64,000 nt of DNA from Marchantia polymorpha subsp. ruderalis. Taxonomy: Eukaryota; Streptophyta; Marchantiopsida; Marchantiales; Marchantiaceae. The position numbers and the translations under genes were made by a program. The DNA is taken from assembly GCA_037833965.1 (NCBI GenBank), contig AP031354.1, forward strand, positions 31,722,001-31,786,000, read 5' to 3'. The notes beneath the pieces are model-generated. The model ran no database searches, was not told the DNA's origin, and saw only the letters and a list, made by a program, of their open reading frames with translations. Positions 32,227-64,000 of the stretch are shown one piece after another (position 1 is the stretch's first letter; each line of letters begins with the position of its first letter).

Positions 32227-34006
32227 TCAAACTCCGTCAACAACGACGGTTTCCTCTTTGGATCTTGGTGGCGATTGACGACCTCGTTCGGACTTGGAGT
32301 TTTCGGCGAATTTCATGCTAGCATGGTGGAGACCGTTGGATTGCTCTTCCTTGCTCCACTCGGAGATGTAATAATCTTCCTCCGTGGCCTTGGACGGAGG
32401 GCAGAACATGCTTCCCCACTGCGGGAAGTGGACGAAGATAACAGGCAGAGTGCAGGCCACAATCATGATGCCCATCAGCATGATCCCGTCCTCCGTTGTG
32501 TACTTGGAGCTCATGAAGAAAATTCCCTGAGTGGTAACCGCTCCAATGTTTCCACCAGCCCCAGTGGCGCCAGAGATGATTCCAAGTGATCGTCTGGAGA
32601 TGAATGGAATGACACCGAAAGTGGCACCGCAAGCTGCCTGGACGAAGAACGAGAAGATGAGCATTACGGCGATGGCAGGTCCTAGTTGACCCGTGAGACC
32701 CAGAACGATGCACAGAACTCCTCCCACCGTCTGGATGATCCACAGATTCCACAGGCGGCCCCTCATTCCCCACCTCGCAGCCACAACGTCAGACAGGACT
32801 CCTCCCAGAGGGCGAGAGAACAAGTTCATGAGCCCGAATGTGGATGCGATGATTCCAGCAGTCTGCAGGTTCAGGTCGAAGCGATCGTAGAAATACTCTG
32901 CGATGATGTTGTCGACTGTGAGCTCCACTCCGAAGCAATAACCATATGTCAATGCAAAAATGTACGTGCGATAGTTGGTGACAGCGTACAGAAACACCTG
33001 CAAAGAATCATTTTCGATTCTCATCAGATCATGATCAGAGTGAGCCCATCAGTTCGTTTCATTTTAACTTCTTCAACTCGAGCTCAGAAGAAAGCCAACA
33101 GTAAATCTCAACATTGCAAAGATTTGAGAATTTGGCGATGAAAGTAAAATTGGAGCTCACCTTCTGGAAGCTGTCGTTCACTTTCTCGCCCTCTCTCTTC
33201 AGCTCAGCATAGTTTCCGTCGGGCAAATCTTGGCCCAGGGTCAACACCAGCAATCCCATCATTACTTGCAGCACGCCGGGGACGAAGAAGGCGATCCTCC
33301 AGGCTGTGAACTTCTCGCTCCCGATGTCTCGGCGGATGATGTCGAACACCAGGGGCATCACCAGCTGAACGATGCCTCCTCCCATGTTCCCCCATCCGGC
33401 TGCCGTTCCGTTAGCGATTCCCACGATTTTGCTGTTGAACATGGAGCTCATCCAGAACTGACACGACACAAACGTCGCCAGGCAGAAGCCGATGAAGAAT
33501 CGCACCAGGATGAATCCCACCGGAGTGGACACAAGAGGCATACAGAAGATGGCAGGCGCCGTGATCATCATGAGAATGGCGCAGCCGTAGCGAGGCCCCA
33601 CGAGGTCGCAGATGGTGCCCATGAGCAGCCGAGACACCACAGCTCCAGCGACCGAGGCGATGCCGGCGTTGCCAATGTCCACTTTGGTGAGACCGAGGTT
33701 GTCCCGGATGACGGGCATGAGAGGCGGTGCGGCGAAGGTGGAGAAGAAGCAGATCATGAACGCGATCCACGACAGATGGAAAGTCCTCATGTGAGGAGCA
33801 GCCACGGAGTAGAGCCTCACGGTCTTGGCCTTATGCTCGGAATCGACCGGAAGAGCGAACTTCCTCCCCTTAAGATCTGTGGCTTCTTTCTCGCCCACAG
33901 TCTCCATAGTCATCTGGAACACGGGCTCTCGACCAGTGACTCCATGCAAGGACGATCCGGGCTCGCCCTTGGCGTTTCCCTCCTGCCAGTCGCTGTTCGG
34001 AGCCAT
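32227..34006 (-). CDS. NRT2: NRT2 high-affinity nitrate transporter, module 5
   Basis: Complete two-exon gene for a 538-aa nitrate importer. Exon 1 is 34006-33161 (282 codons), the intron 33160-32998 (163 nt, GT-AG), exon 2 32997-32227 (256 codons plus stop). All family signatures are intact: [33 protein letters not shown], and a cytosolic tail with [15 protein letters not shown]. Protein differences from module 4 are minimal, and the intron lengths are identical, so these copies are young. The divergent partner at 35346 is a NAR2 pseudogene, so this transporter would need NAR2 from another module. Confidence 0.97.
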
Positions 34007-35345
34007 AGCTTAGGAATCCGAGTCTCAGAACTAAATTGAAACGCGTAACTCGTGAAGCATAAATTAACCCGTCACGAGCTACTGAAAAATGCAAGGAATT
34101 GGAGTGTGGCTTCACCAACTCCGTATAATGATGACAATTGTACAAAATTGTAACGAATCGGATGTGTCAGAAGCTCTACACATTCAGTCTCTAACCCCTT
34201 TGAGTGTTTGTCCCGATTCAAGGAGTCGTAATATCCTGACTCGAGGTCAGGGACAAAACACTAAGGAAGTTGAAGAGAGAGAATGGAGGCAGAGACACTA
34301 CGAGAGGATGATTTTGATTGAGCAGAGAAGTTCTCTATATATACAGAGCGAGAAGCTCGTTATCGACTGTGGCAAGTTTGACTTCCAGTGGGGCTCGAGC
34401 TAGCGCTGCAGGAGTAGTATCAGCAGCAGAAACAGCAGCAGTGAAGAGATTCTGAAGGTACAGGAGTACGGCTTCTGAGTACATTCGCTGGAGTGACACG
34501 TTTGCTTGCAGTGTGGCCAGTGAAAGCAGAACGCCGCATTTTGGTCTATTTGGGGCTTGCAAGTCTCCTCCTCACCCTGTGGAGGTTCCTGCCGTCTGCC
34601 CAGATCGCCGCATCTTTGCATTCAGCTTGGATCCAGAATCCTGATTTCCAGTTGGCCTTACGAGGGAGAAGTACACGTCTTGTTGGTTGTCTCTGCGTAT
34701 TAAATTCGAACCAGCACCAGCACCCCCGTGCTGCTGGTGGTTCGAGAGTATATACCGACGTGTTGGAAGCTATGGATCTTCGAATTCCGAGTACCAGGTA
34801 ATATGAAAATAAACTATTTCCGTGCCCGGCCATTAAAATATTAAAATAAAGTATTAAGAAATTTGCTTCAGACGGAAGATGGAATATACTCTGGTCTACC
34901 CCATCTCCTAAGGTTTTGTGGTGGGGCGTCCGGTCTTGTCTGTTGTTATCTTCCAACGCCTTCGCACTTCATTTATTTCACTGGATCTCAAGTAGAAAGC
35001 TGAATCTTCTCTCCTACGTACGGCCGGACTGTGCCCGAGTATCCCTGGGGAGGGGAAGATCCCAAAGTACAATTAAAATTTACCATCCTGAATCTGAGCA
35101 AGTTGTACTCATGTACGTCGATCAGATTCTGCTTGTCCCTCTCCCGCTAACTCGAGGTTTGTCTTCCAATGGATGGGCTTACGAAGAATGCTTGAGGCTG
35201 AAAGTCTCAATGCAGTGTCTTCACTCCTCCTTGTCCTCCTGGAGAGTTCGGTCATACAATATACAATATCGTCGTACCCAGTTCTCGAGCATAAAGGTGA
35301 ATCCAGCATTGCGGTGCTGCCCGCTACGCTTCTAGCTCCTCTCAT
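34007..35345. promoter_or_regulatory. Divergent promoter region, module 5
   Basis: A 1.3-kb spacer. The NRT2-side TATATATA on the minus strand is at 34336-34343 (337 bp from the ATG) and the palindrome CTGACTCGAGGTCAG at 34236-34250. The block upstream of the TATA (34360-34400) is shared with modules 3, 4 and 6. The NAR2 half keeps a recognisable but diverged form of the core block of modules 2-4 (about 35000-35200), yet it now drives only a pseudogene. A hairpin-forming sequence, CGAACCAGCACCAGCAC with its near complement, is at about 34708-34747. Confidence 0.6.
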
Positions 35346-35591
35346 GATAGCCCGGGTGATGAGAAAGTCACTCGTTGTTGCAACTTCGGTCCTTTATGCT
35401 CTGATTAGTTTCGTTGGGACGACTGTGCTTTCTCTAAATTGCAGAGGGCTCTTCTGATGGAAACCGAGATTCAGAATCAAGTCTCCGCGACAGGACTGGC
35501 CAAAGTAGGCGACGACCACTTGAGAATCAGATGGGCGGTCCGCTACTATCCAGGAAGCAGCAGCTGCAGACCTCGATGCGTCGTACGAGAA
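35346..35591 (+). pseudogene. NAR2/NRT3 pseudogene, module 5 (5' third only)
   Basis: Starts at a plausible ATG and encodes a signal-like segment (SVLYALISFVGTTVL) and then, in another frame, ETEIQNQV and GLAKVGDDHLRIRW, matching EDEIQNQV and GLAKAGDDHLVIRW of the intact genes. It is frameshifted near 35450 and again near 35550, and ends abruptly after the equivalent of LDASYE, about residue 85 of 210. The KLCYAP, KDKTC and membrane-anchor regions are missing. The following sequence (ATCTATTGTTCATAGAC) is unrelated to NAR2 but shared with module 6. Confidence 0.9.
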
Positions 35592-36061
35592 TATCTATTG
35601 TTCATAGACTAAAACTATATCGGTAACAAACAAGCCGAAAGTGTAGGCACTTGTTTTCAAAAGGCACAGTTTTGTTTTACACTTGACTTGGTTTGGCCCG
35701 TATTAGTTTTATAAGAGTGCCCACTTATACCAATTCTCAACAAGCAAAAGTTTCATGCATTGAAACTAGCTTGATATGGAAAGATCCACTGCAATACCAG
35801 CTGAACAAATTTTCTGCTAGGAAACTCGGTTGAGAGTTCTACATAATGTTTGCGAACAATGAGTCTATGAAACTTTCTGTTTCTCAATCTAAGATAGTAA
35901 CGCAATGAAGACAAAATTAAAGTACACTCAATCTTCACCATACTTGTCCCAAAACAAAACCTTCTAAAAATAAATATCAAAATTGAAACTCATATATTCA
36001 TGAAGGAGTAACTTGATTGTTTTTCTATTAAGTTAAAATAATTGTCAAACTATGTTCAATT
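35592..36061. other. Gap between NAR2 pseudogene and Copia element
   Basis: About 470 bp of AT-rich sequence with no gene. Its first 60 bp match the sequence after the module 6 pseudogene at the right window edge, so the shared duplication extends past the broken NAR2. Confidence 0.6.
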
Positions 36062-38520: not shown

Positions 38521-40273
38521 TCACATCAAAGAACCATAGTGCTAAGTTAGACTCTACATCTAAGAAATGTTGTTTTCTTTAATATCCTAATGGAGTGAAA
38601 AGTTATTGGTTATGAAATTTAGTAGTCCATGAGTTAATTGTCAGTAGTTTTTTTCAAAGAGCATGGCTTATTGAAAGAAAGGGAGATTTTTTAGACTTCT
38701 CGTATTGACAAGGAAAAATCTCCACTCATAGATATTGTTGTGAGAAAGTTTGACCATTATGTCACAAATAATGTGTCACAAGAAGGAGAACTTGTGCATG
38801 TGGAACAAAAAGTACACAAACAGGTTATTGTTAGTGAGCCTATTGCAACAATATCAGAAGATAGAGATCAACAAGAAGCGCCTACTAGGAGATCACATTG
38901 TGCTATTAGAGCTCCTAAGAGATTTGATGTATTGACTAATTCATCCATTTTTTAATATCGTGACCTTGATACAGAGGATAGAGATTGTATGAAGTTAATA
39001 TTAGAATAAGTTGAACCTTTTTCAAACATTGAAGCTTAAGCTTCAACAAGCTTGAGTGGAATGCTGCTATGGATCAAAAAATATAATCGCTGATTGAAAA
39101 CAAGACTTGGGATCTGGTTGAGCTTCTTAGAAATCAAGCACTATTGGCTTCAAGTGGATGAACAAACTAAAGTACAATTCAACAAGAGGCGAGACAAGAA
39201 TCTTCAAATCTATGCTGGTAGCTAGAGATTTCACACTTGAAAAAGATGTGCACTACAATAATTTATTTCACATGTAGCGAAGTATGCTACAATTTGTCAG
39301 GTATGTGCACAAGTCGCGATATTTAATCTTATTATGAATATGATGGATGTGTTTACAATTTTTCTCTACGTATATTTAGAAAAGAAGATATACATGAGAT
39401 AATCAATTGGCTTTGAGTTAAAAAGCTAAGAGAGTTAGGTTTGTAAATTATTGAAATCACTGTATGAATCAAAGCAAGCTTCTAAGTAGTGAAACACACG
39501 ATTTGATGAATGCATGAAGGCAGATGGTTTTTTAATGAGAGTGTTTGATACTTGTGTCTACATGAAAAAAAGAAATGATGAGACTTTCAATCTCATATTT
39601 TTAATATTCTACGTTGAAAGCATATTCATCTTGTCAAAAAATCAATGTGATGTTGATGAATGCAAGAGTCAGCTAAAGTTTGCATTTAAATTGAAAAATA
39701 TAGGTAGTTAAAGATAATATTAGACATAGATATTTATAAAAGTTTTGAACAGAAAAGATTATGGTCGAGTCAATGCAATTATATTCATTGTATATTTGAC
39801 AGTTTCAACATGGCCAATTTTTAAAAAGTATGGACTCCTTTTGTAACACATTTTAGACTCTTAGTAACTCAATTTCCTACTGATACTGTGGAGAAAGTTA
39901 GAATGTACTTCATTCTCAATGATGTCATGTAGTTACGAGTCGGCTCACGAAGTTCAGACACTTACTATATTTAGCCGTAAAGTTAGGATTCCGGTCACGA
40001 GGGGTATACAGTCGGGGACGGCTCGAAGAACGTCAGTTCTTCGAGTTGAGCCTGGAAGCGTTGGGAGCGTAGAGTGACTTTCCCCGTCGAGCCTGGAAGC
40101 GTTGGGAGCGTAGAGTGACTTTCCCCTTTGCGTCAACCTGGATTCTCCGAGTGTGGAGTGGGTTGGGCTTGACTCATGTTTGTGACGGTGACGGTTTGTT
40201 GTCAGTAGGGTAATTGACCGACGGGAATTCCAGTGGGGAATTTTCCGTACATTTCACTCGAAGAACTCTATTC

Positions 40274-40693
40274 GATATTCGTCATCCTTGGAGTTTATGG
40301 GACGTGACGAAAGGACTTGCCAGAGTTGCAGCCCATGCAGTTGGAGGGGATTCTCACGTGGAGGTGGCTACGAAGGAGGGTACGGAGAACCCTTCTTTGC
40401 AATGTGTGGCGTAGCAACCATTGACAGTGTCGCCTCCCTCTAGTGTGCCTATGGAGGAGGAATGGGAGCCATTGATTGGTTCCCAGATCACAGGAGGAGA
40501 GAGGCGACGATTGACACAATTCCTACGAGACTATAGGAGTTGTTTTGCCTTCAGTATGGAGGAGTTGGGTGCGTTGATTGAACCCGGTATACGGATAGAA
40601 CTGGCTAGTGATACGCCAATCTTCCGTCGTCCTTATCGATATAGTGAGATGGAGAGAAATTTGATTCGGAGTAGAACGTTGGACCTACTAGAG
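40274..40693 (+). repeat. 420-bp direct repeat, copy 1 (copy 2 at 44684-45103)
   Basis: The leader of the Gypsy element holds a 420-bp stretch that recurs at 44684-45103, at the start of the reverse-transcriptase region, offset by exactly 4410 bp. I count only about eight mismatches, roughly 98% identity. The sequence around each copy is unrelated. Confidence 0.9.
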
Positions 40694-43569
40694 ATCTGGC
40701 AGTGGTGCCAGTTGAGGTCTCGTCATCACGGAGCAATCTAGTGGTCCTGTTGAGGACCGCGGTGGATTTACGCGGAGCGGATTGAGGTATCGGCTACCTT
40801 CACCTATTTTGCCAGTTGTTGCGGAGCACGACCAGAGTGTTGCAGACACAGAGTCTTTGTTGGTGATATCGTCTAGTGTCCCCACCCCATTGATTTGGGA
40901 CATGGACGGGATGTACGGGGCCGCGAAGGGCCCTCGACGTTACTCTGGTGCAGTGGGCACCATCGAGCTTGATGATTTTATTCAGGAGTTCGACACGTGG
41001 TGTGATATGCAGTTTCTGCGTAACCCCACGTTGTTTACACCCTTCTTTGCATGGAAGGGATTATTCCAGCATTTGAAGGGGCCTCCCATGGACGATTATC
41101 ATGAGTTTGGGAGAGAGTATGCTGTAGAGATTGATGCATGGAGACGGCATTGGTCTCCGAACTACTCATCCATTACCCAGGGTGGTGTGGGTACCAGTGG
41201 AGCTGCGAGTATCGGCATCAGTGGAGGTGCGAGTAGTAGCATCAGCGAGGGTACCAGTGGAGTAGTTGGCGCAACTGGTACTAGTACCAGCAGCGGTACT
41301 GTTAGCATTGCCGGTGGCAGCACGAGGGGAGATGCTGGTGGCGTACCTTCGTTTAGCCCCATTCCTGAGTTCTTCCAGAGATTGAGGAAGAATTATCAAG
41401 GGGTGAAAACGGAGAAGTTGAGGAGCCTCCAGGAGTTTGAGCGGAAGACTGGTGAGAGTCTTCGTGAGGCATACACTCGTATGCGACGGCTCATCTCAGT
41501 TACTCACGGTGTAACTGAGGCACAGGCTGTCCAATACTGGTATCGGATCCTTGACAGAGAGTTGCGGAGGAGAGTGCGTGATGCTACTCTCATGAGCGAC
41601 TCATCACCCACATTAGCCCATGTGTTTGCTCTTTCTGAGAAGATTGAGCTTAACATGGTGGAGGAGAGGGTGGTGACGTCTACATTTGCGAGGAACACGA
41701 CCACTACCTCGCGTATCCCACATAGCCCAGCACAGTCTCGCCCCATAAGTGGGAGTCGTGGAGGTCATACACAACATCCTTCAGGTCACAGAGAGCCTAG
41801 TGCGCGGCCACCACTGCCTTCATTTTCGGGTCAGCCACAGGGACCGTCATGTTGGACATGCGGAGGTAGCCATATGAGGAAGGATTGTCCCCTAGAGCGA
41901 GAGGGACAAACTCCACAGGCTAGGCCTCAGCCGGCACAGGTGACCTGTGATCATTGTCATCGACCGGGTCACCCTCGAGAGCGTTGCTTTGAACTTCATC
42001 CTGAGTTGAGATCTGGAGGTAGAGGTCGTGGAGGTGATGCTCCGCGAGGCCGAGGTGGCAGAGGTGGTAGAGGTGGTAGAGGTACCGGGGCCATTGAGCG
42101 TACCGCAGCGAGTGCTACTTCTGCCACAGAGAGCGCTATGGCTGCTCGGATTGAGCAGTTGGAGCAGAGGCTTGCTGCTATGGCCGGTCTGGGGGCGAGC
42201 ACTTCCACATCTTACGAGGGAGAGGATTTCTCCTATTTGGCCAGTGCAGCACAGGTTGTGGCATCAGTTGCAGTGACCAGAGGTGGTGCTCGCACTTCAG
42301 AGCCACGTGGTGCGACTGTGGAGTTGGACCCTCAGAGGGGTGAGGGTGGACGTCAGTCTAGACTTCCCCAGTCCTTTTTGTTGTCAGAGGTGGGTAGCAG
42401 TTCATCTATGAGACCTGCACCGCCTACTGACACTAGAGTGAGAACTGAGGTTCTTACATCATCTGTTGTGGGCGTAGACGTGCCATCTAGTGCAGTGATG
42501 CGGATGGCCACTTTAGTCTTGCGATCTCCATTGTTCTCAGCCACGGAGTTGATAGACTCTGGTATTGATTTGGCTCGAGTATTTCGGGTAGCAGCCACGT
42601 CGTGTGAGCGTGGGAGAGTCGCTGCTACTAGTGCCGAGATAAGTGAGGATACAGTTGAGGACCCATCCTCAACGTCTATATTGTTCGAGGAGACGACTTG
42701 GCAGGCCGCAGCGGCGAGGATGGAGTTCTTACCAGCTCGCCCAGCCATTGATCGCGAGAGTATTGTCCCTGGTGTATGTATGGTGGACAACCGAAGTGGT
42801 CTATTTCGGTTAGTGAGTTCTACTGGATAGGTGTATGTCCCAGCCAGAGTTTTGTTGGATTCTGGTGCACAGCCCTTGATGTTGGGCAAGGCTGCATGCA
42901 TTAGTTTGGGCATTTGGAGGTCCGAGTTAGAACCTTGCCCATTCCAAATCCAGACATCCCTTGGTGGTGCCAGCAATAGGTCTTACTTTATGACCAGGGA
43001 GAGCATAGCGGTGCAGTTGAGGCATGATCACCCTCATGATAGCTCGCAGTTTGGAGTTCGTGCTGTGGTTACATCAGCAGAGTCATATGATGTGCTTGTT
43101 GGTGGAGTGATGTTATATCCGATGGGCTTCCGGATGGACTATTGGACGGAGACTGCCGCATATCGTCCTGGTTGGCAGTCCGGAGATGGACGTTTGAGCG
43201 AGCTGCCAGTGAGATTTATTTCTCGGGATCGACCTCTTGGATCTTCGTCAGCGGTCTTGGCATCTGTAGCAGGTTTTAGCGGAATGCTTACCTGGCCCGA
43301 TGACTTGTTGGAGGGGAACATGTCTGCCGACGATACCTCAGTCTACGAGGATGTGGAGGAGGTTGTGAGTTTCACAGCGGCGGTGACTTCACCCTTAGAT
43401 GTTCCACTGTGGAGTTCGTGCCAGGCACTACAGTTGGAAGCTGATAGGTTGGTAAAAAAGGCTTGGAGTGAAGCCTCTTTACCAGCAGAGCCAGAGAGGG
43501 CTTCAGCTGATCGGCTAGTTGGTGGTTCTAGCGCATTGTCTCCATTGGTTACTACACCTATTGCATGGG

Positions 43570-44540
43570 AGTATTCCTCAAAGGGCGTTTGTTTGCTGGA
43601 TCTTTTTGGTGGGATCAGCACCGGTTTGGCTGCGGTGTTGCAGTCAGGTATTCCCGTACGGAGATACTTATGTGTGGAGAAGGACGAGACTGCACGTCGA
43701 GTCTCTTCACGACATGTTGCACAGTTGATGCGGCGTTTTCCTTCGTTGTTGCCGCGATCAGCTGTCCGAGGATTCCAGAAGGCGTTGCCTTCAGACATTT
43801 CGTTGCTGGGGGCGCCAGACCTTGACCGCGTTGGCCATATTGATATGGTGATTGCGGGCTGGCCATGTCAGGGACACACACGCGCTGAACATGGGACAGG
43901 GTTGCATGATCCCAGATCTCGGATGTTTTGGGAGATGATGCGAGTGTTACGTCATCTCCAAGTGCAGCAGACACGTTCTCCAGCATACATTCTGGAGAAC
44001 GTACCATTGTTGGGTGACACTCGGGCCCAGTTGATGGCGAGTGTCCATCAAGTCCGAGCATGGATTGGATCAGCAGTACTGTTGGATGCTGCGAGGGTTG
44101 GATCACGGGCGCATCGTGCACGTTTGTGGTGGACCAACCTTTTGCCACGTGAGATATTGCGTCATGCCTATGATTCGGTGAAGCGTGATACTACACTCAC
44201 CGTTGACAGTATCTTGGATGTTTCCCGGCACTCTCAAGTAGTGAGAGTTGCTGACAGGTCACCTATGGCGTTGGTGAACCGCGTAGGCCAGCCTCGGATG
44301 GCTTTACCTACATTTGTCAGTTATCCGGCATCACATGCATATCGTGATGGGGGACCTGGACTACTATGGGACAGTACCCTACATCAGTTGGTGGAGCCCA
44401 ACGCTGATGAGAGAGAGCGTGCGATGGGGTTTCTTACTGGTGTGACCGCGGCTTCTTCGGTTTCAGAGGCGTCGCGTCGTCAGGTTTTAGGTCAGGCTAT
44501 GGACCTGAACTGCTTGACATGGATTGTGAGCTTGGGTTTG
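43570..44540 (+). mobile_element. Cytosine-5 DNA methyltransferase domain carried by the Gypsy element
   Basis: Seen in sequence: motif I LLDLFGGISTGLA with an acidic partner (CVEKDE) one strand later, motif IV GWPCQGHTRA with the PCQ catalytic loop, motif VI YILENVP, a motif VIII-like GSRAHRARLWW, and a C-terminal ERERAMGFLTG resembling motif X. The AHRARxxW signature and the motif spacing look closest to the DNMT3/DRM clade of de novo methyltransferases; that is inference without an alignment. The domain lies between protease and reverse transcriptase. An enzyme of this type would methylate cytosine in DNA using S-adenosylmethionine. Fossil-element part; no claim of activity. Confidence 0.85.
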
Positions 44541-44683
44541 GCCAAGCAACGTACGTAGTGAACGTAGTACTACGTTCACTAGTTCTGTCACCCCGTTTGC
44601 GCGCAGATTTGGTGGTTGTAACACCACTTATTAGCTCATTGCCTACCGGGACGGTAGTGGCAATGGCTGGGGGCGACAGGCAA

Positions 44684-45103
44684 GATATTCGTCATCCTTG
44701 GAGTTTATGGGACGTGACGAAAGGACTTGCCAGAGTTGCAGCCCATGCAGTTGGAGGGGATTCTCACGTGGAGGTGGCTACGAAGGAGGGTACGGAGAAC
44801 CCTTCTTTGCAATGTGTGGCGTATCAACCATTGACAGTGTCGCCTCCCTCTAGTGTGCCTATGGAGGAGGAATGGGAGCCATTGATTGGTTCCCAGATCA
44901 CAGGAGGAGAGAGGCGACGATTGACACAATTCCTACGACACTATAGGAGTTGTTTTGCCTTCGGTATGAAGGAGTTGGGTGCGTTGATTGGACCCGGTAT
45001 ACGGATAGAACTGGCTAGTGATACGCCAATCTTCCGTCGTCCTTATCGATATAGTGAGATGGAGAGAGATTTGATTCGGAGTAGGACGTTGGACCTACTA
45101 GAG
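44684..45103 (+). repeat. 420-bp direct repeat, copy 2
   Basis: Resident copy of the repeat described at 40274, at the beginning of the reverse-transcriptase coding region (encodes ATMEEEWEPLI-like and RRLTQFLR sequence). Being within coding sequence, it is more likely the source than the product of the duplication. Confidence 0.85.
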
Positions 45104-47797
45104 GCTGGACTAGTGGAGTTATCGCATGGTGAGTATGCGTCAGCCACTGTCATGCCGGTGAAGAAGGATGTACATGGCAACTACACGGATAGGCGCATGT
45201 GTGGAGACTACCGTCCTATCAATCGGCAGACGAAGTCCGATAAGTATGCCATGACTACATTTGAGGAGATCTTCGATGTGGTGGGACATGCGAGGATTTT
45301 TAGTACTTTGGATCTTCGGGCAGGATACCATCAGTTGCCAATTCGGGAGGAGGACAAAACCAAGACAACGTTTTGGGGCGTCAACTCCCACGGCAAGGAT
45401 TGTTTGTATCAGTGGCGATTCTTACCCTTTGGGTTGAAGAATGCACCTGCCGAGTTTCAGAGGGTTATGGACAGAATCCTGGCGGGGCTGGATTTTGTCA
45501 GATGTTACATTGATGATATCTTGGTGTTTAGTGACACTGTGGAGCAACACCAGATACACTTGCAGATTGTGTTTGAGCGATTGAGGGCTCATGGTTTGAG
45601 GTTACATCCTGGGAAGTGTAAGTTCTTCCAGGAGAAGGTTGAGTACTTGGGTCATGTGATATACCCAGGTGGTTTAGGAGTTCAGCAAGCAAAGGTGGAG
45701 GCTATTGCACGCATCCCTCGTCCCACGGATGTGAGTAGAGTTCGTGCATTTATGGGTTTAGCGAACTACTACCGGAGGTATGTGAAGGGGTTCAGTGCTA
45801 TAGCCAAGCCTTTGAACCAGTTGCTGAAGTCAGATCAGGAGTGGCAATGGAGAGATGAGCAGGAGAGAGCTTTTGTTGAGCTCAAGGCCAGGTTGGTGGC
45901 CGCTCCCATCTTGAGGAGACATATCAGAGGTCGTCCATACCAATTGCACACTTATTGGAGTATGTTGGGACTTGGAGCGGTGTTGACGCAGCGTGATGAT
46001 GAGGGCAAGGAGTTTGTGGTTGCGTACGCTAGTCGTTCGAACAATGCAGCGGAGTCGCGGTATAGTTCGTACGAGGGAGAGTGCTTGGTAGCGGTGTGGG
46101 CTGTGGCGCACTTCAGGTGTTACTTGTTTGGTACGCAGTTCACCCTTGTTACTGATCATCAACCGCTCAAGTGGTTGATGGAGTCCGACAAGCTTACAGG
46201 GAAGCTTGCACGGTGGGCTCTCATCTTACAGGAATACGACTTTCAGGTAGTGCATAGACCTGGAGTTGCGAACCTAGATGCCGATGGTTTGAGTTGAAAC
46301 CCATGCACTAGCCAGGAGGATGACACTAGAGCTAGATGGCATGGTGAGGTTGACGAGGAGATGGTGCCTGGTTGGCATGCATCTGCCTTCATGTGTTGGT
46401 TACGTGGGAACTCCAGCAGAGAGTATCATCTGACATCTTACTCTAGTCAGAGAGTAGATGGTCGATCTTCAGATCCTGAGGTTGAGGATGGTGGTGTGGA
46501 TCAGCGTGATGTACACGATGATGCATTGGTGTTGGAGTTCCTACGGACCAGCATGGTGCCAGGCACAGTGGGTGCCAAGGAGCGAGATCGTGTTCTCCAA
46601 CGGGCCAAGAGGTACCGATTGGAGGGATCACATGTTCTTCGAGTGTGGGAGGACGGTAGGGTACGAGTAGTACCACATCCAGCCCAGAGAGCACGCATTG
46701 TGAGGCATGCTCATGAGGAGTTGGGACATTTTGGAGTGAAGCGTACATACAGCTTACTCCTTGGTCAGTATTGGTGGCGTGGTATGCATACTCAGGTACA
46801 GCAGTTGGTATCACGTTGCATGGTTTGTGATCAAGTGAGGGCATCATTCAATGCCCCGACACCAGTGTTACATCCATTACCCATCATGGGGTTGGGTTAC
46901 CGTTGGAGTTTGGACTTTGCTGGACCACTACCTTTGACTGTACGACATCATCGGTATGTGTTGGTGATGGTGGAGCATTTCTCCAAGTGGATTGAGTTGG
47001 TGGCATTACCTGACAAGGCAAGTGAGGGAGTAGCGTATGCTTTTCTTGACAGAGTGCTTAGTCACTATGGTGCACCAGCTGAGGTGTTGACCGATCAGGG
47101 AACGGAGTTTCAGGTCTTGTGCGACAAGGCACTGATTGATCATCGGACCACGTCGCGAGATCATCCAGAGGCGGATGTTTTAGCTGAACGTGTTGTACAG
47201 ACGGTGAAGAGGGCGTTGCGCAAGTATGGCCTGCAGAAAGGTCATCTTGGGGACTGGGATATCCAGTTACCGTGGTTGGCCATGGGATATCGGTTCAGTC
47301 GGCATGCATCCTTGGCTTCCTTCTCACCATATTTTCTATTGTACGGCCGAGATCCAGACTTGCCAACATCGATTCATCGTGAGTCTAGCGAGGTGGTGAA
47401 CCTTGATGACCCGAATATGTGGGTGAGAGTATGTTCTCAACGTGCAGAGCTCTTTCGAAGAGTTATGCCTGCAGCGTTTGAGAATCTTGCGATTGCTCAA
47501 CATAGAGATACGTTGCGGTATGCAACCATTCGGGGAGGAGGTTATCGACCATCAATTCGTAGATTCCATGTGGGAGACTACGTCTATCTACAGCAGACTG
47601 CACCGACGACATTGGATGTGACGGCGGGACGCACCATCTTGCGGGTGCGGGAGGTGTTACCTTCTGGAGTTCTCCTGTTGGAGGGTCGTGACGGCGTTGT
47701 TTGGAAGGATCATGTGCGCAATTGTGCGCCATGCCACCTCCCAAACGTAGATGGCACTATGGACCCAAGCTTAGCGATCGTACGTGCTAGCTTGAGG

Positions 47798-47923
47798 TGC
47801 ATGCTGTGTGGGTCGGCTAGTAAGGCGGCCCGTATGTTGGTGTGTGATAGGTGCTCTAGGGGATGGCACATGTCGTGCCTAACTCCGCCTATCGATGTTA
47901 TTCCGGCTGGACGATGGGTTTGT
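47798..47923 (+). mobile_element. PHD-finger-like domain at the integrase C-terminus
   Basis: The residues CMLCGSASKAARMLVC, then DRCSRGWHMSC, then GRWVCP give the Cys/His spacing and the aromatic residues (RGWH, GRWVC) of a PHD finger. Many plant Gypsy elements end their integrase with a chromodomain that steers integration to histone marks; here a PHD-like reader sits in that place. Reading of methylated or unmodified histone H3 tails is known for the PHD family and is only inferred here. Confidence 0.75.
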
Positions 47924-47950
47924 CCTCGGGTGGTACCCCACTTTTGGTAA

Positions 47951-48940
47951 TTTTGAGGAAATTAAAACATTTTTGGAAAACTGTACCCTGGCAGCAATGT
48001 AAATAGCCTTCGGTGCATCAAAACAGAGTGAATTCGGAAGATCGCGGGGATTCTCGAGGGATCTCGTAGAATCTAGGAGTTGGGTGCAGCAGTAAGGACG
48101 GGCACCACCCTCCCTGCGAGCTCTGCAGTTAGGATCCCTACGGCGCAAGGCGCAAAACCCGCCTTCGGAGCTGCATCCGCGGCGGTAGGGAAATCCTTCA
48201 TATTTAGGTCAACCCCCGGACGCCTTTACCTAGCTAGGGTCTCGTTGGAAAGAGCTCGACGCACTGATTCCAACGAGCCCAAGAACGCCAACAGCGGATA
48301 AGGACTCCGGGAGTTATGAAGGTTGTAAGATACTCAGCTCTTCGCCTACGCACAGGCGGAGAAGTTTTGTCCTATGCGCGGACGAAGGAAGTTCGCATGT
48401 GCACAGGCGAAATAGGGTTTGAGGTAGGCGCGAAGTTCGCCTACGCACAGGCGTCCGCCTGTGCACAGGCGCTTCAGCGTCGGCGGGAAATCCGCCTTGG
48501 GCCCTAGAAATGCGCCTTGTGAGGTAGAAATTGTACGACGCCTTCTGCGCCATCGCAGCGCCGCGGGCGAGCAAGGAGCCGCCAGAATAGTCAAATCCGT
48601 ACGGACCATACGGACGGGACGGATGGATGCGCTCTTGGACGGACGGAGTTGCGGCGGCGGAAGCGCCGACGAAGAGACAAGGAACGGACAGTCTAGACGG
48701 AGACGGCTGACCGCGGTCAACGCCTTCCGCGCCAGCGCGTCGCCGCGGACGGAATTCGCCTGCGCACAGGCGAGCGCCTGTGCACAGGAGGATGAAGTTC
48801 CGCGCTGGTGGAAAATCCGCCGAGGAGTCTGCCCGCGCACAGGCGGGAGTTGAACTTTTGTCCGACATGCGGACACACGCGTCGAGGCAGAAGGGGATTG
48901 GCTGAGGAGCGGTACTGTGGTAACACACTTTTTGTTTTTT
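47951..48940 (+). mobile_element. Family X fossil LTR element, partial copy A (leader only)
   Basis: GC-rich sequence homologous to the leader of copy B: it shares TTTTGGAAAACTGTACC/TTTTAGAAAACTAGTACC, the GAAAGAGCTCGA...CGAGCCCAAGA segment and GGAGTTATGAA/GAAGTTATGAG. It contains several copies of the CGCCTGTGCACAGGCG palindrome family. No coding region of its own is recognised. It begins right after the Gypsy PHD-like domain. Confidence 0.6.
48390..48850. repeat. Cluster of 16-bp palindromes (CGCCTGTGCACAGGCG family)
   Basis: A perfect copy lies at 48456-48471, with variants nearby (ATGTGCACAGGCG near 48398, CCTACGCACAGGCG near 48440, CCTGCGCACAGGCG near 48758, CGCCTGTGCACAGG near 48776, GCGCACAGGCGG near 48834). 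Each is self-complementary or nearly so. The same motif recurs in copy C coding sequence (55454-55469 perfect; also near 55334, 55471, 55500 and 55840). Confidence 0.8.
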
Positions 48941-48944
48941 TTGC

Positions 48945-51900
48945 AGAATTTAAACAATTTTAGAAAACTAGTACCGAAGCAGTGTTTGTAGTTAGAAAAA
49001 GGTACGTTAAAAAGAGTGGATTGATGAGATCGTCACGAGGACACGAAGAATCACGTAGTCGGATGTACCAACGCCAATGTCTTCGGCGCCTTCGGCAAAA
49101 GCTCCTTTTCTGAGGTGTCTCTACTCACGCGCCTCCAGCGTATAAGGAAGCTACGCTTCCGGCGCAGACACCTCAGGAGGAGGTTTTGCTAAAGACGTCA
49201 GGAGAAGGGCCCGGACCTCTGAAGGCGTCCGACCATGAGTGCGCCTTCGGCGATGCGCCGCTAGCGCGGGAAGGGAAAACCTTCATAACGATCGGGATAC
49301 ACGGTAGATCCAGTTGGTTGAAGTCGCATTAGAAAGAGCTCGAGACGCTCGTTCTATCGAGCCCAAGAGCGTCGGAGATGGATCAGGGACGAAGAAGTTA
49401 TGAGCGTCGGAAAACTCGTAGCCGGACACGCGCCGTTTGCGCTAGGGTTCACAGCCGGAAAGGAATCCCGTACGCCCTCGGCGATGCGCCTTCGGCGGAA
49501 TCACGCGCTCATAGGAGGAAACCAACTCAGAGTCGGAAGCGCCTTTGGCGGCTGTTCATGGAAGGAAAGCGCCGGTCGGATGTACGTCTCCGACGTGGCG
49601 CTGACGGCTGGATGCGCTGGCATGAGTTGCGCTGGCGGATATGCGCCGGCAGCAATGGACGAGGCATAAAGGACAAAATAAGCGGTACGACTGCGCACTG
49701 GCGTAATTCGCTCCGACTAGATGTGCGCCTCCAGCAAGGCGCCGACGGATAAGGAACGCACCAACGGCGACACGCCTCCGGTGATGGACGGATTAGGAAA
49801 AGACAACATGGCCGACGTATACCCTGCGGCGGACTCGAGTCCGGAAGGTGGCGGCGGCGGGAGAATTCAACATTTACGCATGCGAATGCGCGCAATGCAA
49901 AGACGTGAATTCGCGCATGCAAAGGGCGAACCGTTAGGCCGTATAGCCGGCTGCGTACGTTGTAACCAGTAAGAACGTTGGACGTTCTTGAAATCGGAGA
50001 AGAAAAGACTGCGCTCCAGTCTCATTCTCTCATTCTTGATTTTGCGATTTCCAGTTTCCAAGATTACGCGCAAGAGCGGAGCGACCTGCAGTGAGAGGAG
50101 AGAGTGCGGAGACGAGTTGCGCAAGGATCTTGGCAGACCTTGGAGAGAATTGCGAGTAGCGATCTTGAGCTTGAGCGCAGAGAGAGCGAGCAGTCAGTGC
50201 TTGAGCGGCCGACGCGCAGTGGCGATTGTGAGAGAGCGAGCGAAAGGGAGAACGTTTGTGTGTGCAGGCAACGCAATGTCGAAGGTTCCCCAGCTGCGAG
50301 TGTCTCCACTCAGGGTGCCGCAGATCGGTCTACGCGCATTTCAAGATGTGCTGCTGAGGCTGAAGCTCGATTTTCTCCTGTGGGGGTGGAACTGGACATG
50401 TCCGGAGATGGTGCGCGAGTATCTGCAGGAGAGACACAAGCCCTCTCGCGGATTCCGTCCACATCCAGAAAGATGGGACATTTGCAACTGGGCGCAGGTG
50501 TTGGGCAGGTGTGCCGGCGAGGAAGGGGATCTCCTCTTCGAGGCCGATAGCGTGAAGGTGTCCCAGGAGGAAGAAGTCTCCTACAATGAGCTCTTTAAAG
50601 TTGCCAGGCATCCCAAGAACGGTTTCCGGACACGGGATTACAAAGATCGATTGCGGAGAAATGTCGCGACTGCATTGCTGCAGATATTGCAGCCGACCAA
50701 GACCGCTTACATGCATGGTTGGCAGGTAGAATTTGTGGAGCTAGTGTTGTCAGGAGCTCCAGTGCATTGGGCACGGCTCCTGTGGAAGGTGACGCGCCAA
50801 CATGCGCAAGAAGAGAAAGGAGGAACCCTCAATCATCTCTCGCCTTACTTGATCGTGTTTTATCGGGCGATGGGATGTTTGACAAATGCTGAGAAAACAC
50901 GGTTTCCGCAGCTGACCCGGAACTATCCAGGTAGATATTCGAGGGAGGCCGAAGTAGACACGGATCCGGACGAGGAACCTGCCAGTATGCCTCCGGCTCC
51001 GGCTCCAGCAAGAGCAGCAGAAGAACGTCGAAGTGAGCGCATTCCGCGAAAGCGGAAGTGGGATGAGAGACCTGAGGACAGGCAGCCGGAAGTGCCAGCT
51101 GCGCCGACTCGTGGTCGGCCCACCCCCGAGCCTCACAGTCGACCAAAACAGAGGGCACGCAAAATGCCAACTGGTACTGAGGAGACCGGGCGAACTCCGA
51201 CCCGGCGGAATCTCACACAGGAGGAGATAATCGCGCAGATTCTAGGGAAGACGACAGATACCTCTGCACAGAAGGCACCACGGCCTTCGGGAGGAGATGG
51301 ACGGACTGACAGTCGGCCGACTGCGAGTCGGATGACTGAAGGCCGACAAGCGGAAGGAAGGCCAACTGAACGGCGCGATGAACCGGACAGCAGGCCGGAA
51401 GCAGAAGAGAGTTTGGCTGACGAGCCAACAACCCTCAGAGGGTCGTCTTCGGCGGAAGGCACTTCTGGGAAAACGCCACCAGCAAGCAGGCCAAGTGGAG
51501 TCAAGACGCGCAGGGTGTATCCGACTCCCAGTCGGACAACTGCTGGTCGGCCGACTGCGAGTCGGACAACAGAGAGTCGGCCGGATTCGCCGACTGCGAG
51601 ACGGATGGGGCCGACGACCAGTGTGCGGACGCCTTCGGCGGACGCACCTTCAGCGAAGACACCTTCCGCGCAGATTGCGCCGGAAGGACAGACAGCAGAA
51701 GCGGGCGGTGCAAAAGTGACAAGAGTCACTGCGGCGTCGACCCCTTCGGAAACCGAAGATCGAGCCGGAACAGGGGCTCAAGCAGTGGGATCTCCCACTG
51801 CCCTGGATATTTTAGCAGGCAGTGGAGCAGCAGTCGCAGCGGAAGCCGCTGCGCGCCACAGTTCCAGGGAGTCGCCAAGGGATTCGGTGGCGACTGAAAT

Positions 51901-53793
51901 CCTCGAGACTGAGGATGAGACGAGCTCGGAAGAGCAAGAAGCGGATTCGGTGCAGAAAACGCCAACAGGGGTGCTGTGCGAATAGATAGTTCCACTCCTG
52001 CGATATCTGGATCGCAAGACATCCAAATACGCGAGTGCTTTAAAACCGCAGTCTTATGTGGAGACTATCAGGAGAAGGACGAGGAGCAAGGTGGCAAGGT
52101 GGGCCTCTAGGTGCGGAGTATATGTGGATAGCAACACCGCCCTCCGACAACACCTGGCGGTCACACAGAAGCTATACCAAGCCTTGCAGCAGCAGAGGGA
52201 GGATGCGGCGACGAAAAGTCAGGCGGATGCCGAGCTAATACGGGCAAAGATCGAGTCGGAATTGCAGGAGGAGCGGAGACAAAACCAAGTCCTAGCAGCC
52301 GAGCTTGCGCGCTAGACGCGCGCCTTAGAAGAAAGTCAAAGAGCCCGCAAAGAGGATGAGGAGTTGTTGCGCAACTTGCAATCCGAGTGCTCGGATTTGA
52401 GGGCACAACGTGCGGAAGCAGAAATGCAGCTGGCAGAGGTGGAGAGCAGCTGCAGGGCGCGAGGAGAGTTGGCGACACAGGTGACTCGTTGTCTAAAAGG
52501 ATACGCCCATTGGGAGGTGGCAGCTCAAGAGAGGATCACACTCATGGAGTTCGAGCTTCGGGCGGCGGCATTGACGGAGGGTGACAGTCGGAGTCGGCGG
52601 CGAGTGGCAAGGAAATTAGAAACCTTCTTGTCGGGTGCGCGCGACACTATGGCGCACTTACAGTCGGAGGTCACCACAGCGCTCCGACGCCTGGGGTTAC
52701 GCAGCCGGTCGGAAGACTGGCAAGGTAGAGACAGTGAGCGGAGCAGTCCGGCGCGCAGGAGGCGCAGCACCGGATCAGCCGAGTGCAGTAGAATAGTTTG
52801 GTTTCGCACAGATGCTGCGAGTTGTAGATAGGATAGCGTAGTGCTAGTTAGGATCTTTGAGGGTATAAAGTAGATCAAGGCGTTTTGCCTTGGGACTCTT
52901 CTAGTTTCGGAAGTGCAGATCAGGAACTCACTTTCTTGGCGTGTTTGTGCAGTTTGGTCCTGGCACCACGTAGAGAAGCTGCAGCATAGCGAAGTTACCG
53001 TATGTTGTAGTTGAAGGCCTTCGGCCGAATGTTCAGAGCTAGCACCCGGTTAGAGACTTGAGTAGTGCGGATTTGCACCTGCGGGTGATTTCTGATGCTC
53101 AGAGCCGGCTGCGAGTTAGATACTTGAACAGTTCCCCCTTACTCCTTCGAGTGACATATCCTGATTGTACTCCTACGGGAAGTTTCCCCTGAATGCCAAT
53201 GTGAAGTTTTATTACTTCGTGTAAACCTTGGTTTGTAATTCAGGTTGTGTGTGTGTTACTGGATCGTGTCTCAGTTAAGTTCTCAGTCGGGTCTGCACTC
53301 CCTGCGTTTGGTGTGATAGTCGAGGGTGACGTCCACGGCGTATGAAGAGGCTTCGTTCCGAAGTGGGAAGTCCAGTCCGGGTACCCTACGCTAGTTCCTG
53401 GCGGGAGGGCAGTAAAAGCCGGAGTGGGAGGCACTACCTGCAGAACCTCTGAGTGAACTTTTGAGACACTTTCCTCCTGAAATCCGAAGCGGAGGTCCTG
53501 ACCGACCTCCGAGTTGTGCTTTTTGCCAGTTTCAGGTGTGTGTGTGTGTGTGTGTTGAGTGACCACGCTGTACCGTGCATCCTCCGAGCATCCTCCGAGT
53601 CGAGATCCTCCTCCGAGTCGAGCCTCCGAGTCGAGCACTACAGTATTTCTGGGAGTGACAGTCGCCTAGAATTCAAACTCTACAAAAGTCTGTTAAAACG
53701 TGACATTTTTACTCTGTGTGTTGCCTCTGTCCCTGTGGGTTCGATCTTTTTACCACCATACTGCAGTTTTAGCCTTTGGTGGGTTATTACAGG
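48945..53793 (+). mobile_element. Family X fossil LTR element, copy B
   Basis: Leader (48.95-50.27 kb), a long coding region starting about 50276 (MSKVPQLRVSPLRVPQ) to 52.83 kb, and a terminal repeat (about 52830-53793). The product has a compact N-terminal domain (LDFLLWGW, GGTLNHLSP, RTRDYKDR conserved with copy C), a low-complexity charged middle, and a coiled-coil C-terminal part (LKGYAHWEVAAQE). I do not recognise the protein; position and layout suggest a gag-like structural protein of a non-autonomous element. No protease, RT or integrase is seen. Broken in about two places. The middle is rich in a CCGACTGCGAGTCGG-type motif. Confidence 0.65.
52830..53793 (+). repeat. Family X terminal repeat, middle
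   Basis: About 960 bp, roughly 80% identical to about 57150-58170. Both contain a TATAAA box (52864-52869 here, 57193-57198 there), GAAGGCCTTCGGCCGAATG, ACTTGAACAGTT, a (GT)n run, CAGTATTTCTGGGA and the end CCCTGTGGGTTCGA...GGGTTATTACA. The promoter near one end and the conserved terminus support an LTR, shared by copies B and C as in tandem LTR elements. Confidence 0.7.
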
Positions 53794-55329
53794 TACGAAC
53801 GAGTGTACCGCGCAAGGCGGAAAACTCGCCTTCGGCGCTGCGCACCCATGTCCGCGGTGTAGTACGTTCGCGGAGTTCAAATCCGCTAATTCGAGCGTGA
53901 GAGTTTAATCGGCGACGGCGGAGCGTGAAGCCGCGCGTGAGAGCGGAGACCGTTTCAGCGTAGAGCCGGCGCGGCCATCAATTGAGACGTCCTCCACGAG
54001 CAAGAGCCGACCATGACCTTCGACCGGGCGGCGGAGAGCGTCCCATTCTTGAATTCGCGATTCCATTCTCTTGTGCGAGCTGCGCGCGTCCATCTGCTGG
54101 CTGCTAAGCATTCTCGACATCGCCGCACAGAGGATTTCTTGGTGATTGAGGGAGAAGTGAGTGCGCGTGATTTGGAATTGAGGGCGATTAGAGTTTGCCG
54201 AGGAAGAAAGGAGCTCGAGCGGTGCGGAAGTAGAATGAGCGGGCGAGCGAACTCCAGGAACGCAATGACGAGACCGGGCCGATTGCGGATGCTGCCGCTT
54301 CGTCTACCACAGAACGGGCTGCGCGCTTTCGAGGAGCGCTTGATAGCAAGAAAGCTCGATTTCTTGCTATGGGGATGGAACTACATCTGTGCGGATATGG
54401 TGCGCGAGTGGCTAGAGCCACAGGGACCACCCTCGCGCGGATTGCGTCCGCATGTTGATCGGTGGACAGTCCAAGATTGGGCGCAGGCATTGGGAAGATG
54501 TGCCGGCATGCCAGGGCATCTCCTCTTCGACAGTGAGAGCATCAAGGTGACCAAGCAGGAAGAGGCGCAATTTGTGGAGTTGTTCAAGACCGGGAGGTCT
54601 ACCAAGAATGGGTACAGGACCCGCGATTACAAGGATCGATTCCGCCGGACTTTGTCCGCGGCGCTGATGCAATTACTGCAGCCACACCGCGCCTGCTACG
54701 TCACATTGTGGCAGGTCTCTTTTGTGGAGTGCGTCATCGAGGGAACTCCAATTCACAGGGCGAGCATCCTGCACAGGGTGATGCGACAGCACGCTTTTGA
54801 GGAGAAGGGGGGAACTCTAAACCATCTCTCTCCTTTCCTCATCAATTTTTATCGACAGCGGAATTGTTTGACAGAGGCGGAGCTTGAGCGTTTTCCGCCG
54901 TTGTCCGTCGACCATCCCGGGAAGTATGTGCGGGAGAATGAGGTCGACACTGATGCAGAGGAGTCACCGACTTCTACTCCGTCAAGGCGGAGGAACGAAG
55001 GGAGGAACACTCCTGCAGCACGAGCGCCGCGGAAGCGGCGATGGAGAGAGGAGTCCGAAGAGGAGCAGCATCAAGAACCCTCTGCTCCCATTCGACCGCG
55101 GCCGTTGTACGAGTCATACAGCCGACCGAAGCAGAAGGCACGCAGACTGGTGTTACCAGCCAACAGCGCGGACACGGCGACGATTGCGACGGAGAAAGGA
55201 AGTGCGTCGTCAGAGAAGAATGAGGAAGCGCGGACGTCCGCAGGAGCAACGGACCACGCTGCAGCCTCGACGGACGAGAGGCCGCCTACGGGCCAAGGGC
55301 CTCCGGAGTTACCACGTGCGTTGCGGACA

Positions 55330-55860
55330 GGTGTTCCGTTTGCGCACAGGCGAGCCTCCGCGGACGGACGAGACTCCGCGGACGGACGAGCCTCCGCGGA
55401 CAGACGACCACAAGTGGACGTAGACCTACGCCTACGCGTGGGAAGAAGCAGTCCGCCTGTGCACAGGCGCTCGCCTGTGCACAGGTCACCTCCACACGTG
55501 CCGCCTGTGCACAGGCAGGAATCACCCCCGTTCCAACGAAGGAAGGGGAAGGAGCCGGCGGAAGAGCCGCCTACGAGACACCGGCCTTCGGGGCCAGACC
55601 CTCCGGCGCACAACGCGCCGCGATTTGCGCCTTCGGCGCCAAGGCCTTCGAGCCAAGGAGATACGAGCAGGGAGCGTGCGGAGGCCGCACCATCGGCGGG
55701 TAATCCGCCGGTAGATGCGCCTTCGGCGGTAGGGCCTCAGGGCCAAGGTACATCGGGCGAGCGGCCCCCGGCCATGTCGCCTTTGGCGATGGACGTCCGC
55801 GGCGCTACGCCTGCGGCGGACAAGGCGCCGGCATTTGCGCCTGCGCACAGGCCAAGCACA
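55330..55860. repeat. Palindrome cluster inside copy C coding region
   Basis: The CGCCTGTGCACAGGCG motif and variants occur at least five times, encoding PVHRRSPVHR-type peptide repeats, interleaved with CGGACGGACGA and GCCTTCGGCG repeats. The same DNA motif is found in the non-coding leader of copies A and B, so selection or spread acts on DNA rather than on peptide. Confidence 0.7.
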
Positions 55861-57149
55861 GCCCCCGCGGACCGATCAAGGGAGCAGCAACAGGCGGAGG
55901 AGCGGAGTGACTGTCCGCGGGATGAAATTTTGATGCGCGATGCGCAATCAAACCCCGCGCAGCCACCCTCCGCTCGATCGCCTTCGGCGGCGGACGTCGG
56001 CGGCAGAGAGGATACGGTAGACGACCAACAAGCGGGCGGCGGGGATGCAGCACGGGCACATTCGCCTACCGCCTTAGACATTTTGGCGAAGAGCAGCGAG
56101 GCTGCAGCCGTGCCTTCGCAGGCAGCACACGTCGACGACGTGCAGCCCCACTCGGGTCAGTCGCCGACGCAATCAATGGCGACTGAAATTCTCCACTCGG
56201 ATGATGACGACGGAGGCTCCCCCGAAGAAATGTCAGGAGCAGGGGACACCGAGGAGGAGGAGGAGGAAATTGTTGGAGCGCCGGCGGCGGCGCTCTCTGA
56301 GCAGGTGATTCCGTTGCTGAGGTATTTGGATCGCAAAGTCGATAAATACACCGACCCACTTCAGCCGGGATCTTACATCGAGTTAGTGCGCAGGCGGACT
56401 CGCACTAAAGTCCACACCAGCAAGCTACTAGCTAGAGTGGACCAGGAGTTGAGGGAATTGAAGGAGAAGCATGAATGCTTGTGGGGTCACTATAAACTTA
56501 ATCAGAAATTCTACAAGTACTCCGAGAAGGTGAGGGATGGGAAACTGGAAGAGCTCACCAAGGAGCAGGTGAAGGTCACAGAAGCACTAATTTCTGAGCA
56601 GGCCCAGAATCGGATTTTGTCAGAGGAGCTCGTGCGACAGACGCGGTTGTTAGAACAGTGTCAGCTCGCACGACAGGCGGATGAGGATGTAATCCGCAGG
56701 CTACAGTCAGAGTGTGGCGAATTGAGAGCGCAACGTGCTGAGGCCGAATCGCAATTAGTGGTAATTGAAGAGGATCGCAGGAAGGAGGCAGATCGCACAA
56801 AGGAGGAGACGGCGAGGCGTGTCGCCCACTGTCTCAAGGGCTACGCCCACTGGGAAGTGGCGGCGCAGGAGAAACTCACACTGCGTGAGTTTGAACTTCG
56901 CGCGGCCGGGTTGTTCTCAGGCGACAGCAGGAGTCGGCGGAAGGTAGCAAAGAAGCTCGACGCTTTTCTGTCGAAGGCGCGGGATACCATGTCCGCCCTC
57001 GAAGTGGAGGTGTCCGCGGCGTTGCAGCGATTGGGACTGCGCAGTCGAGCGGAAGACTGGCAGGGTAGGGAGTTAGTGCGCGGCAGTCCGTCGCGCAGGA
57101 GACGTAGCACAGGTTCCGCGGAGTGTAGTGTAGCGTGGTTCCGTGCAGG

Positions 57150-58170: not shown

Positions 58171-58480
58171 TCGATGTACTTCATAGGGGTAGATGACTTG
58201 ATCTTCACATGTTATGAATTGCAAATAGGAGACTAACGATGGGGCGACATAGCACCCGGCCTACTGGTTCGCGCACCCACGAAGGTGTATAGCATGTAGT
58301 TGTAGATGGGGCTACCTGGGAGTCAGAGGGACCTGACCGCCAGCTAGGGGGGCGAGTTGTGACATTTGAGTGTGTACTCTCTCGCGCCTTATATGTGTGT
58401 ATGTGTGTGCGTATGTGTATGTGAGTAGCATGTCAGCGATGTAGAGTGTATGGCGATATGTATTCGCACGACAATGAACA
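58171..58480. other. Junction sequence between family X and resumed Copia
   Basis: About 300 bp. The first 60 bp resemble a Copia RT fragment (VDDLIFTC-like), followed by unassigned GC-richer sequence and a TATGTGTG microsatellite (58390-58430). Recognisable Copia sequence resumes near 58480. The order suggests more than one rearrangement at this edge. Confidence 0.4.
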
Positions 58481-63941: not shown

Positions 63942-64000
63942 TATCTATTGTTACTAGACTAAAAACTATATCGGTAACAAACAAGCCGCAAGTGTAGGCA

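Follow-up and report, generated by a model that had tools for sequence, protein, structure and literature searches.

A DNMT3-like cytosine methyltransferase in a multicopy Gypsy-type retroelement of the liverwort Marchantia polymorpha

Plants silence transposable elements by DNA methylation, and the locus described here raises the question of why a transposon would bring a silencing enzyme of its own. It lies in a 64,000-nucleotide stretch of Marchantia polymorpha subsp. ruderalis (contig AP031354.1), the whole of which we refer to as the window. Marchantia is a laboratory model with genetic tools, and an abundant, selected and recently mobile family in this model liverwort makes the question directly testable. 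PMC9516144 names published Marchantia methylomes, those of Schmid 2018 and Ikeda 2018.

Anatomy of the element

It is near certain that the locus is a Gypsy-type retroelement with a DNA methyltransferase (DNMT) domain between the protease (PR) and the reverse transcriptase (RT). The initial annotation had placed a methyltransferase between these two domains at 43570–44540; a protease-like DSGA motif does lie upstream and a Pfam-supported RT (5e-34) downstream, and the domain is real, with its boundaries refined to about 43578–44555. The features of the window copy are as follows.

39919–39922, forward: left target-site duplication ATGA, identical to the 4 bases at 58474–58477
39923–40256, forward: A1, the left terminal repeat unit, which begins TGTCATG and has an internal duplication of about 40 nt; 86% over 334 columns compared with A2 of the C4 copy
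40274–40693, forward: variable 5′ stretch that repeats the ORF1-end/RT-start region of the same element (300-nt repeat)
40782–42827, forward: Gag frame containing a pair of CCHC-type zinc knuckles (found in the C8 copy); an in-frame TAG at 42828 ends the frame in the window
42831–43150, forward: protease-like region with the motif LLDSGA, assigned by eye
43578–44555 (approximate), forward: DNMT3-like cytosine methyltransferase domain, from Pfam, PDB profile and motifs; motif IV cysteine codon at 43866–43868
44552–44592, forward: 41-nt insertion in the window copy, lacking in the C8 copy aligned to it; frame shifted downstream of the DNMT
44822–44824, forward: ORF1/ORF2 stop site, TAT in the window copy
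44825–46294, forward: RT and RNase H (RH) (Pfam RT 5e-34, RNaseH 1e-33)
46361–47797, forward: integrase (INT), H2C2 zinc finger and rve core (Pfam H2C2 4e-16, rve 6e-11)
47798–47929, forward: PHD finger at the integrase C terminus, interrupted by the nested insertion (Pfam 6e-10); whole in the C8 copy
47929–58168, no strand assigned: nested insertion, a different element with CCTCG on both sides, at 47924–47928 and 58169–58173 (5-base overlap of two alignments to the C8 copy)
58169–58473, forward: element 3′ end, with the B repeat unit at 58355–58473, single in the window copy and arranged as B1-A2-B2 in other copies
58474–58477, forward: right target-site duplication ATGA, matching the left one

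The frame at 42831–44558 encodes 575 amino acids, with the protease-like motif followed by the C5 methyltransferase. Pfam returned no protease match for 42831–43150, where the aspartic-protease-like DSGA was assigned by eye, and its Retrotrans_gag match to the Gag frame fell below the cut-off (E = 0.02). The 300-nt repeat in the variable 5′ stretch is 99% identical to 44684–44983 and 96–97% identical to the corresponding region of two other copies. A complete PHD finger is also present in L039/L040; its best relatives among PDB sequences are CHD4, KMT2D and PHF12, with PHF21A also among them. Chromoviruses have a chromodomain at the position where the integrase here has this finger.

The window copy is broken: its Gag frame is closed by the TAG at 42828, the 41-nt insertion follows the DNMT, the ORF1/ORF2 stop has become TAT, RT-RH and INT lie in separate frames, and the PHD finger is cut by the 10.2-kb insertion. 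A frameshift between DNMT and RT, which the window copy suggests, was rejected, since it is due to the 41-nt insertion and the C8 and C4 copies are in one frame with an in-frame UAG.

Identity of the methyltransferase

A search with Pfam models recovered the expected family, DNA_methylase, both for the whole frame (34.8 bits, E=1.7e-8) and for the domain alone (36.1 bits, E=6.4e-9). When a profile built from 17 copies was compared with PDB sequences, DNMT3A came out top (3e-11, 46 bits), followed by 4onj (26.6 bits), which is titled only 'DNA methyltransferase' and which we take to be tobacco DRM; further matches were a tRNA C38 methyltransferase (26.3 bits), HaeIII (22.0 bits), DNMT2 (19.5 bits) and HhaI (19.3 bits), and none of the 45 PDB sequences listed at E ≤ 0.01 was named DNMT1 or CMT. 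The motifs stand in canonical, unpermuted order, FGGISTG, GWPCQG, ENV, HRAR and RRQVLGQ, and we take them to be C5-methyltransferase motifs I, IV, VI, VIII and X, the set originally assigned to this domain. In the 30 copies nearest to the window protein, the PC, ENV and HRAR residues are present without exception (30 of 30); the alignment to DNMT3 is poor where the target-recognition part would be expected. By motif order and by its best likeness among solved structures, the domain is a DNMT3-like C5-cytosine methyltransferase. It had been described as 'DNMT3/DRM-like', a label that we narrow to its DNMT3 half because the motif order is unpermuted, unlike that of the permuted host DRM (L002). 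An AlphaFold2 prediction on 17 near-identical copies reached a mean pLDDT of 33 and was unusable.

Split repeats and recent mobility

The description of the locus as a Gypsy LTR element stands for its coding part and fails for its ends. The coding domains follow the Ty3/Gypsy order, with RT-RNaseH before a DDE integrase and a protease, by motif alone, upstream. Direct-repeat searches around the window copy found no ordinary LTRs; instead, DIRS-like A ... B-A-B split repeats occur together with 4-bp target duplications. The right end reads B1 (119 nt)-A2 (about 293 nt)-B2 (40 places scored out of 856 candidates), with B2 shortened to 85 nt in the C8 copy, and A1 at the left end was seen in three loci (the window, L050 and L054). 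The ends are TG...CA, and target duplications, ATGA and CATT, flank both copies in which both ends were read; a third attempt (L072) missed the end. A canonical LTR element, with an identical LTR at each end, is ruled out by the split repeats. A DIRS/PAT retrotransposon was likewise rejected, as the element has an rve integrase with H2C2 instead of a tyrosine recombinase, as well as 4-bp duplications.

Across the 119 nt of the B unit, B1 and B2 are identical in 8 of 14 loci and differ by 1 nt in the other 6, the 14 having been picked for similarity, which biases them towards young ones. This near-identity indicates that the element has been recently mobile. Recombination between B1 and B2 would explain the single B of the window copy. 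Between A1 and gag, copies carry stretches that fall into several unrelated kinds (window 40274–40693; the left flanks of L043–L056; L039:1–2448), possibly through template switching during reverse transcription.

The C4 copy has a small acidic ORF ahead of gag (L041:1796–2164), one of a set of about 120–130 codons with no Pfam match. Genome-wide, 134 matches were found among 144 candidates. For at least 30 of 40 left ends, the ORF is found no further than 1.5 kb upstream, a lower bound taken with 81 of the 134 ORF matches. Its pN/pS is 0.10–0.61 (uncorrected, 21 pairs). It is absent from the window copy and is probably an accessory gene of the element.

Copies across the genome

The genome searched comprises 9 contigs and 241,466,482 bases, including C1 of 5,591,195 bases. 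Merging Pfam and protein searches within 2 kb gave at least 141 distinct matching places, spread over all 9 contigs and with 7 on C1; both searches are lower bounds, with 123 of 290 candidates scored for Pfam and 76 of 822 for protein. Four Pfam loci, of which two were translated, were excluded because the section of the model that they matched marked them as host-gene-like. About 65 of the 141 places rest on the Pfam match alone; when six Pfam loci, three of them outside the protein-search list, were compared with the window protein, all six belonged to the family, at 90–98% identity in pieces. Half of the protein-search loci (38 of 76) have PR-DNMT without a stop, and 20 of the 76 additionally have a frame of 1351–1365 codons.

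Selection and mutation pattern

To what extent is the domain maintained? The DNMT domains of L073 and L074, stop-free members of another subfamily, were compared with those of 30 main copies (dN = 0.032 and 0.037, dS = 0.29), giving dN/dS between subfamilies of 0.110 and 0.124, with 9 nonsynonymous and 26 synonymous fixed differences. Within the main group, dN/dS is 0.25 (435 pairs). Among variants common to at least 3 of the 30 copies, pN/pS is 0.15 in the DNMT (8 nonsynonymous, 18 synonymous) and 0.09 in PR; by the same criterion it is 0.19 in gag, 0.23 in RT and 0.31 in the PR-DNMT spacer. For private variants, pN/pS is 0.64 in the DNMT and 0.32–1.01 overall. Because the 30 copies were ranked on how closely their protein matches that of the window, private counts in PR-DNMT are biased downwards, whereas the between-subfamily comparison is affected much less; singleton counts in gag and RT, which include badly aligned flanks, were not relied on by themselves. 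These substitution patterns show the DNMT domain to be under purifying selection.

Private C>T/G>A changes per site amount to 0.12 in CG, 0.135 in CHG and 0.097 in CHH, set against 0.022 for A>G/T>C and taken without a control sequence. The excess is consistent with methylated copies and would fit host methylation equally well. Strand-biased editing was considered and set aside, the private G>A (64) and C>T (36) counts being judged to match broadly what an excess of G on the strand would give. CpG observed/expected stands at 0.73 for the element, 0.86 for its DNMT and 0.83 for the remaining window, which shows no clear depletion.

Protein layout and a predicted leaky stop

In the C8 copy, ORF1 (1361 codons stop to stop) encodes Gag-PR-DNMT, and ORF2 (1042 codons), which encodes RT-RH-INT-PHD, comes next without a change of frame; ORF1 is the same in the C4 copy, in which ORF2 is split into two pieces. 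ORF1 thus terminates past the DNMT and ahead of the RT. In 28 of 30 copies the two ORFs are separated by a UAG codon with CAA CCA after it; the exceptions are the window copy (TAT) and L027 (unreadable). The tobamovirus readthrough motif is UAG CAR YYA (PMC3542737), and UAG CAA CCA fits this type of leaky stop, so readthrough is predicted from the sequence context. Because Gag, PR and DNMT form one frame ending at such a stop, the DNMT is expected at the level of Gag; if the stop leaks, it would be made alongside Gag and protease and in excess of RT and integrase.

Origin and known relatives

The host has a DNMT3 (L001) and a DRM (L002) of its own. In pairwise comparisons the element domain is 28% identical to human DNMT3A (57 bits, partial DNMT3A row), 27.5% to host DNMT3 (55 bits) and 27% to host DRM (37 bits), whereas host DNMT3 and human DNMT3A share 37% (92 bits). 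Recent capture from host DNMT3 was rejected, as the domain has no special similarity to it (27.5% versus 28% to human DNMT3A). The DNMT3 genes of host and animals agree with the element in motif order and in the residues of motifs VIII (AHRAR) and IX–X (ER..GF ... R..LG), but their identity to it is 25–28%, and host DNMT3 has an intron in the corresponding stretch and is nearer to human DNMT3A than to the element.

Phage C5 methyltransferases (phrog_116 and phrog_363) also resemble the domain, with tblastn scores of up to 80 bits among the 15 listed of 185 matching records and 58.5 bits for phrog_116; 80 bits exceeds the pairwise score of DNMT3A, but the search settings differ. They are, however, free-standing genes with 23–31% identity in the listed rows, and the match does not point specifically to phages, since host DNMT3 has a match to phrog_116 too (131 bits). 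In a 13-row tree, the element sits on a branch of 2.0–2.4 substitutions per site between eukaryotic DNMT3/DRM (support 75–77) and phage enzymes (89–92); so long a branch between the two groups indicates that acquisition was old or that the domain is fast-evolving. A single-sequence query of viral contigs, which reaches close relatives only, found no relative.

Methyltransferase-bearing retroelements had been cited at the outset from a charophyte and a dinoflagellate, and both are on record, as KnitGypsy-Dnmt3 of Klebsormidium nitens and SymbioDIRS-Dnmt3 of Symbiodinium (PMC5890265). Likened by its published description, KnitGypsy-Dnmt3 is the closest known system: it has Gypsy-type domains, a polyprotein that includes a Dnmt3-type domain, intronless and unpermuted, a DIRS-like repeat arrangement and purifying selection on the DNMT (Ka/Ks < 0.2, compared with 0.11–0.12 for the Marchantia element). 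It differs in that the Marchantia host is a land plant, with at least 141 copies. The leaky-stop layout and the integrase PHD finger are features of the Marchantia element, and the words gag and PHD are absent from the main text of PMC5890265. SymbioDIRS-Dnmt3 shares the Dnmt3 domain and A-coding-B-A-B repeats, but it has a tyrosine recombinase where the Marchantia element has a DDE-type integrase and 4-bp target duplications. De novo CG methylation by the SymbioDIRS DNMTs was shown in yeast and methylation of cDNA was proposed, whereas no methylation was obtained in yeast with the KnitGypsy-Dnmt3 enzyme, a result termed inconclusive by its authors (PMC5890265).

That survey used predicted proteomes, which may leave out transposon genes, and the word Marchantia is absent from the paper. 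Full-text searches of open literature gave no report of a land-plant element of this kind, and passages of PMC8616336, PMC9516144, PMC6453930 and PMC8566409 mention no land-plant DNMT retroelement. The extension of range anticipated for this locus is thus borne out within the open literature: what is new is a land-plant (liverwort) host for a kind of element reported in 2018, and the element is otherwise largely an ordinary transposon. The leaky-stop layout, the PHD-tipped integrase and the small upstream ORF are possible novelties beyond host range.

Possible roles of the enzyme

With a probability that we place somewhat short of even, the purpose of the enzyme is methylation of the element's own DNA around reverse transcription. 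Most translation would stop at the UAG, yielding DNMT in Gag-like amounts that would be packed with Gag into particles, and a minority of ribosomes would read through to give Pol. In the particle or pre-integration complex, the DNMT would methylate the element's own new double-stranded DNA, which is the less certain step; the new copy would reach chromatin already methylated, and so hidden or tamed, with the PHD finger helping to select the chromatin target. The leaky stop after the DNMT thus offers a concrete hypothesis, a particle-bound enzyme with its own DNA as substrate. It draws on the domain and the domain order, the at least 141 places, purifying selection, the UAG CAA CCA context in 28 of 30 copies and recent mobility, as well as on the proposal of cDNA methylation by de Mendoza et al. 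and the yeast CG activity of the SymbioDIRS enzymes (PMC5890265). It is weakened by the negative, although inconclusive, yeast result for KnitGypsy-Dnmt3 (PMC5890265), by the poor alignment of the target-recognition region to DNMT3, by readthrough being read from sequence context alone, by a private C>T excess that host methylation explains equally well and by the fact that other retrotransposons do without a DNMT.

Enzyme made at the level of Gag could also enter the nucleus, and the DNMT might act in trans on host chromatin or sister copies rather than on cDNA, for instance by marking integrated copies to limit transposition or by targeting host silencing genes for methylation. The Discussion of PMC5890265 considers both self-limitation and an influence on the host epigenome, and copies show methylation-like decay in their private C>T excess across CG, CHG and CHH. 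We consider this unlikely, in that single-lineage selection would in general favour action in cis, fusion to Gag and protease indicates the particle, and PMC5890265, in its text on Klebsormidium, describes no unusual methylome. That the domain acts on RNA, or serves within Gag for binding (RNA/DNA binding or dimerisation), with DNA methylation secondary or absent, seems quite improbable: RNA methylation was suggested for SymbioLINE (PMC5890265) and tRNA-methylating DNMT2-type chains are among the profile matches, but at 26 bits they score well under DNMT3A (46 bits), the family signal is that of DNMT3, and PC, ENV and HRAR, present in 30 of 30 copies, would be needless in a mere binding part. 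As the variable A1-gag stretch attests, the element takes up sequence, and the domain could in principle be a passenger, a captured fragment without use. That it is a chance host-gene fragment in a single copy is contradicted by its occurrence in at least 141 places with a dN/dS of 0.11–0.12 between subfamilies; together with the invariant motifs and the lack of special kinship to host DNMT3, this makes a passenger scarcely credible, the selection result refuting it unless the two subfamily copies are unrepresentative.

Methylation of the element's own DNA could also be part of a wider picture, which we offer as a tentative and rather doubtful one. DNMT-bearing split-repeat Gypsy elements would form one old streptophyte lineage, from charophyte algae to liverworts, in which the DNMT is a Gag-level particle component produced through a leaky UAG, copies are methylated before integration and placed by a PHD-tipped integrase, and the self-written silent mark is a survival strategy.

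Irregular copies and neighbouring repeats

In L027 (C8:3504418–3506139), gag-like sequence follows the DNMT at the expected position of the ORF1/ORF2 stop, which suggests a rearranged copy. The nested insertion in the window (10.2 kb, 5-bp duplication CCTCG) contains a 665-aa open frame at 49988–51985 with no Pfam match. On either side of the element's region, window positions 32227–35614 and 61224–63964 hold repeat families at 90–97% identity, about 28.35–29.0 kb apart, which are perhaps LTRs or copies of another element.
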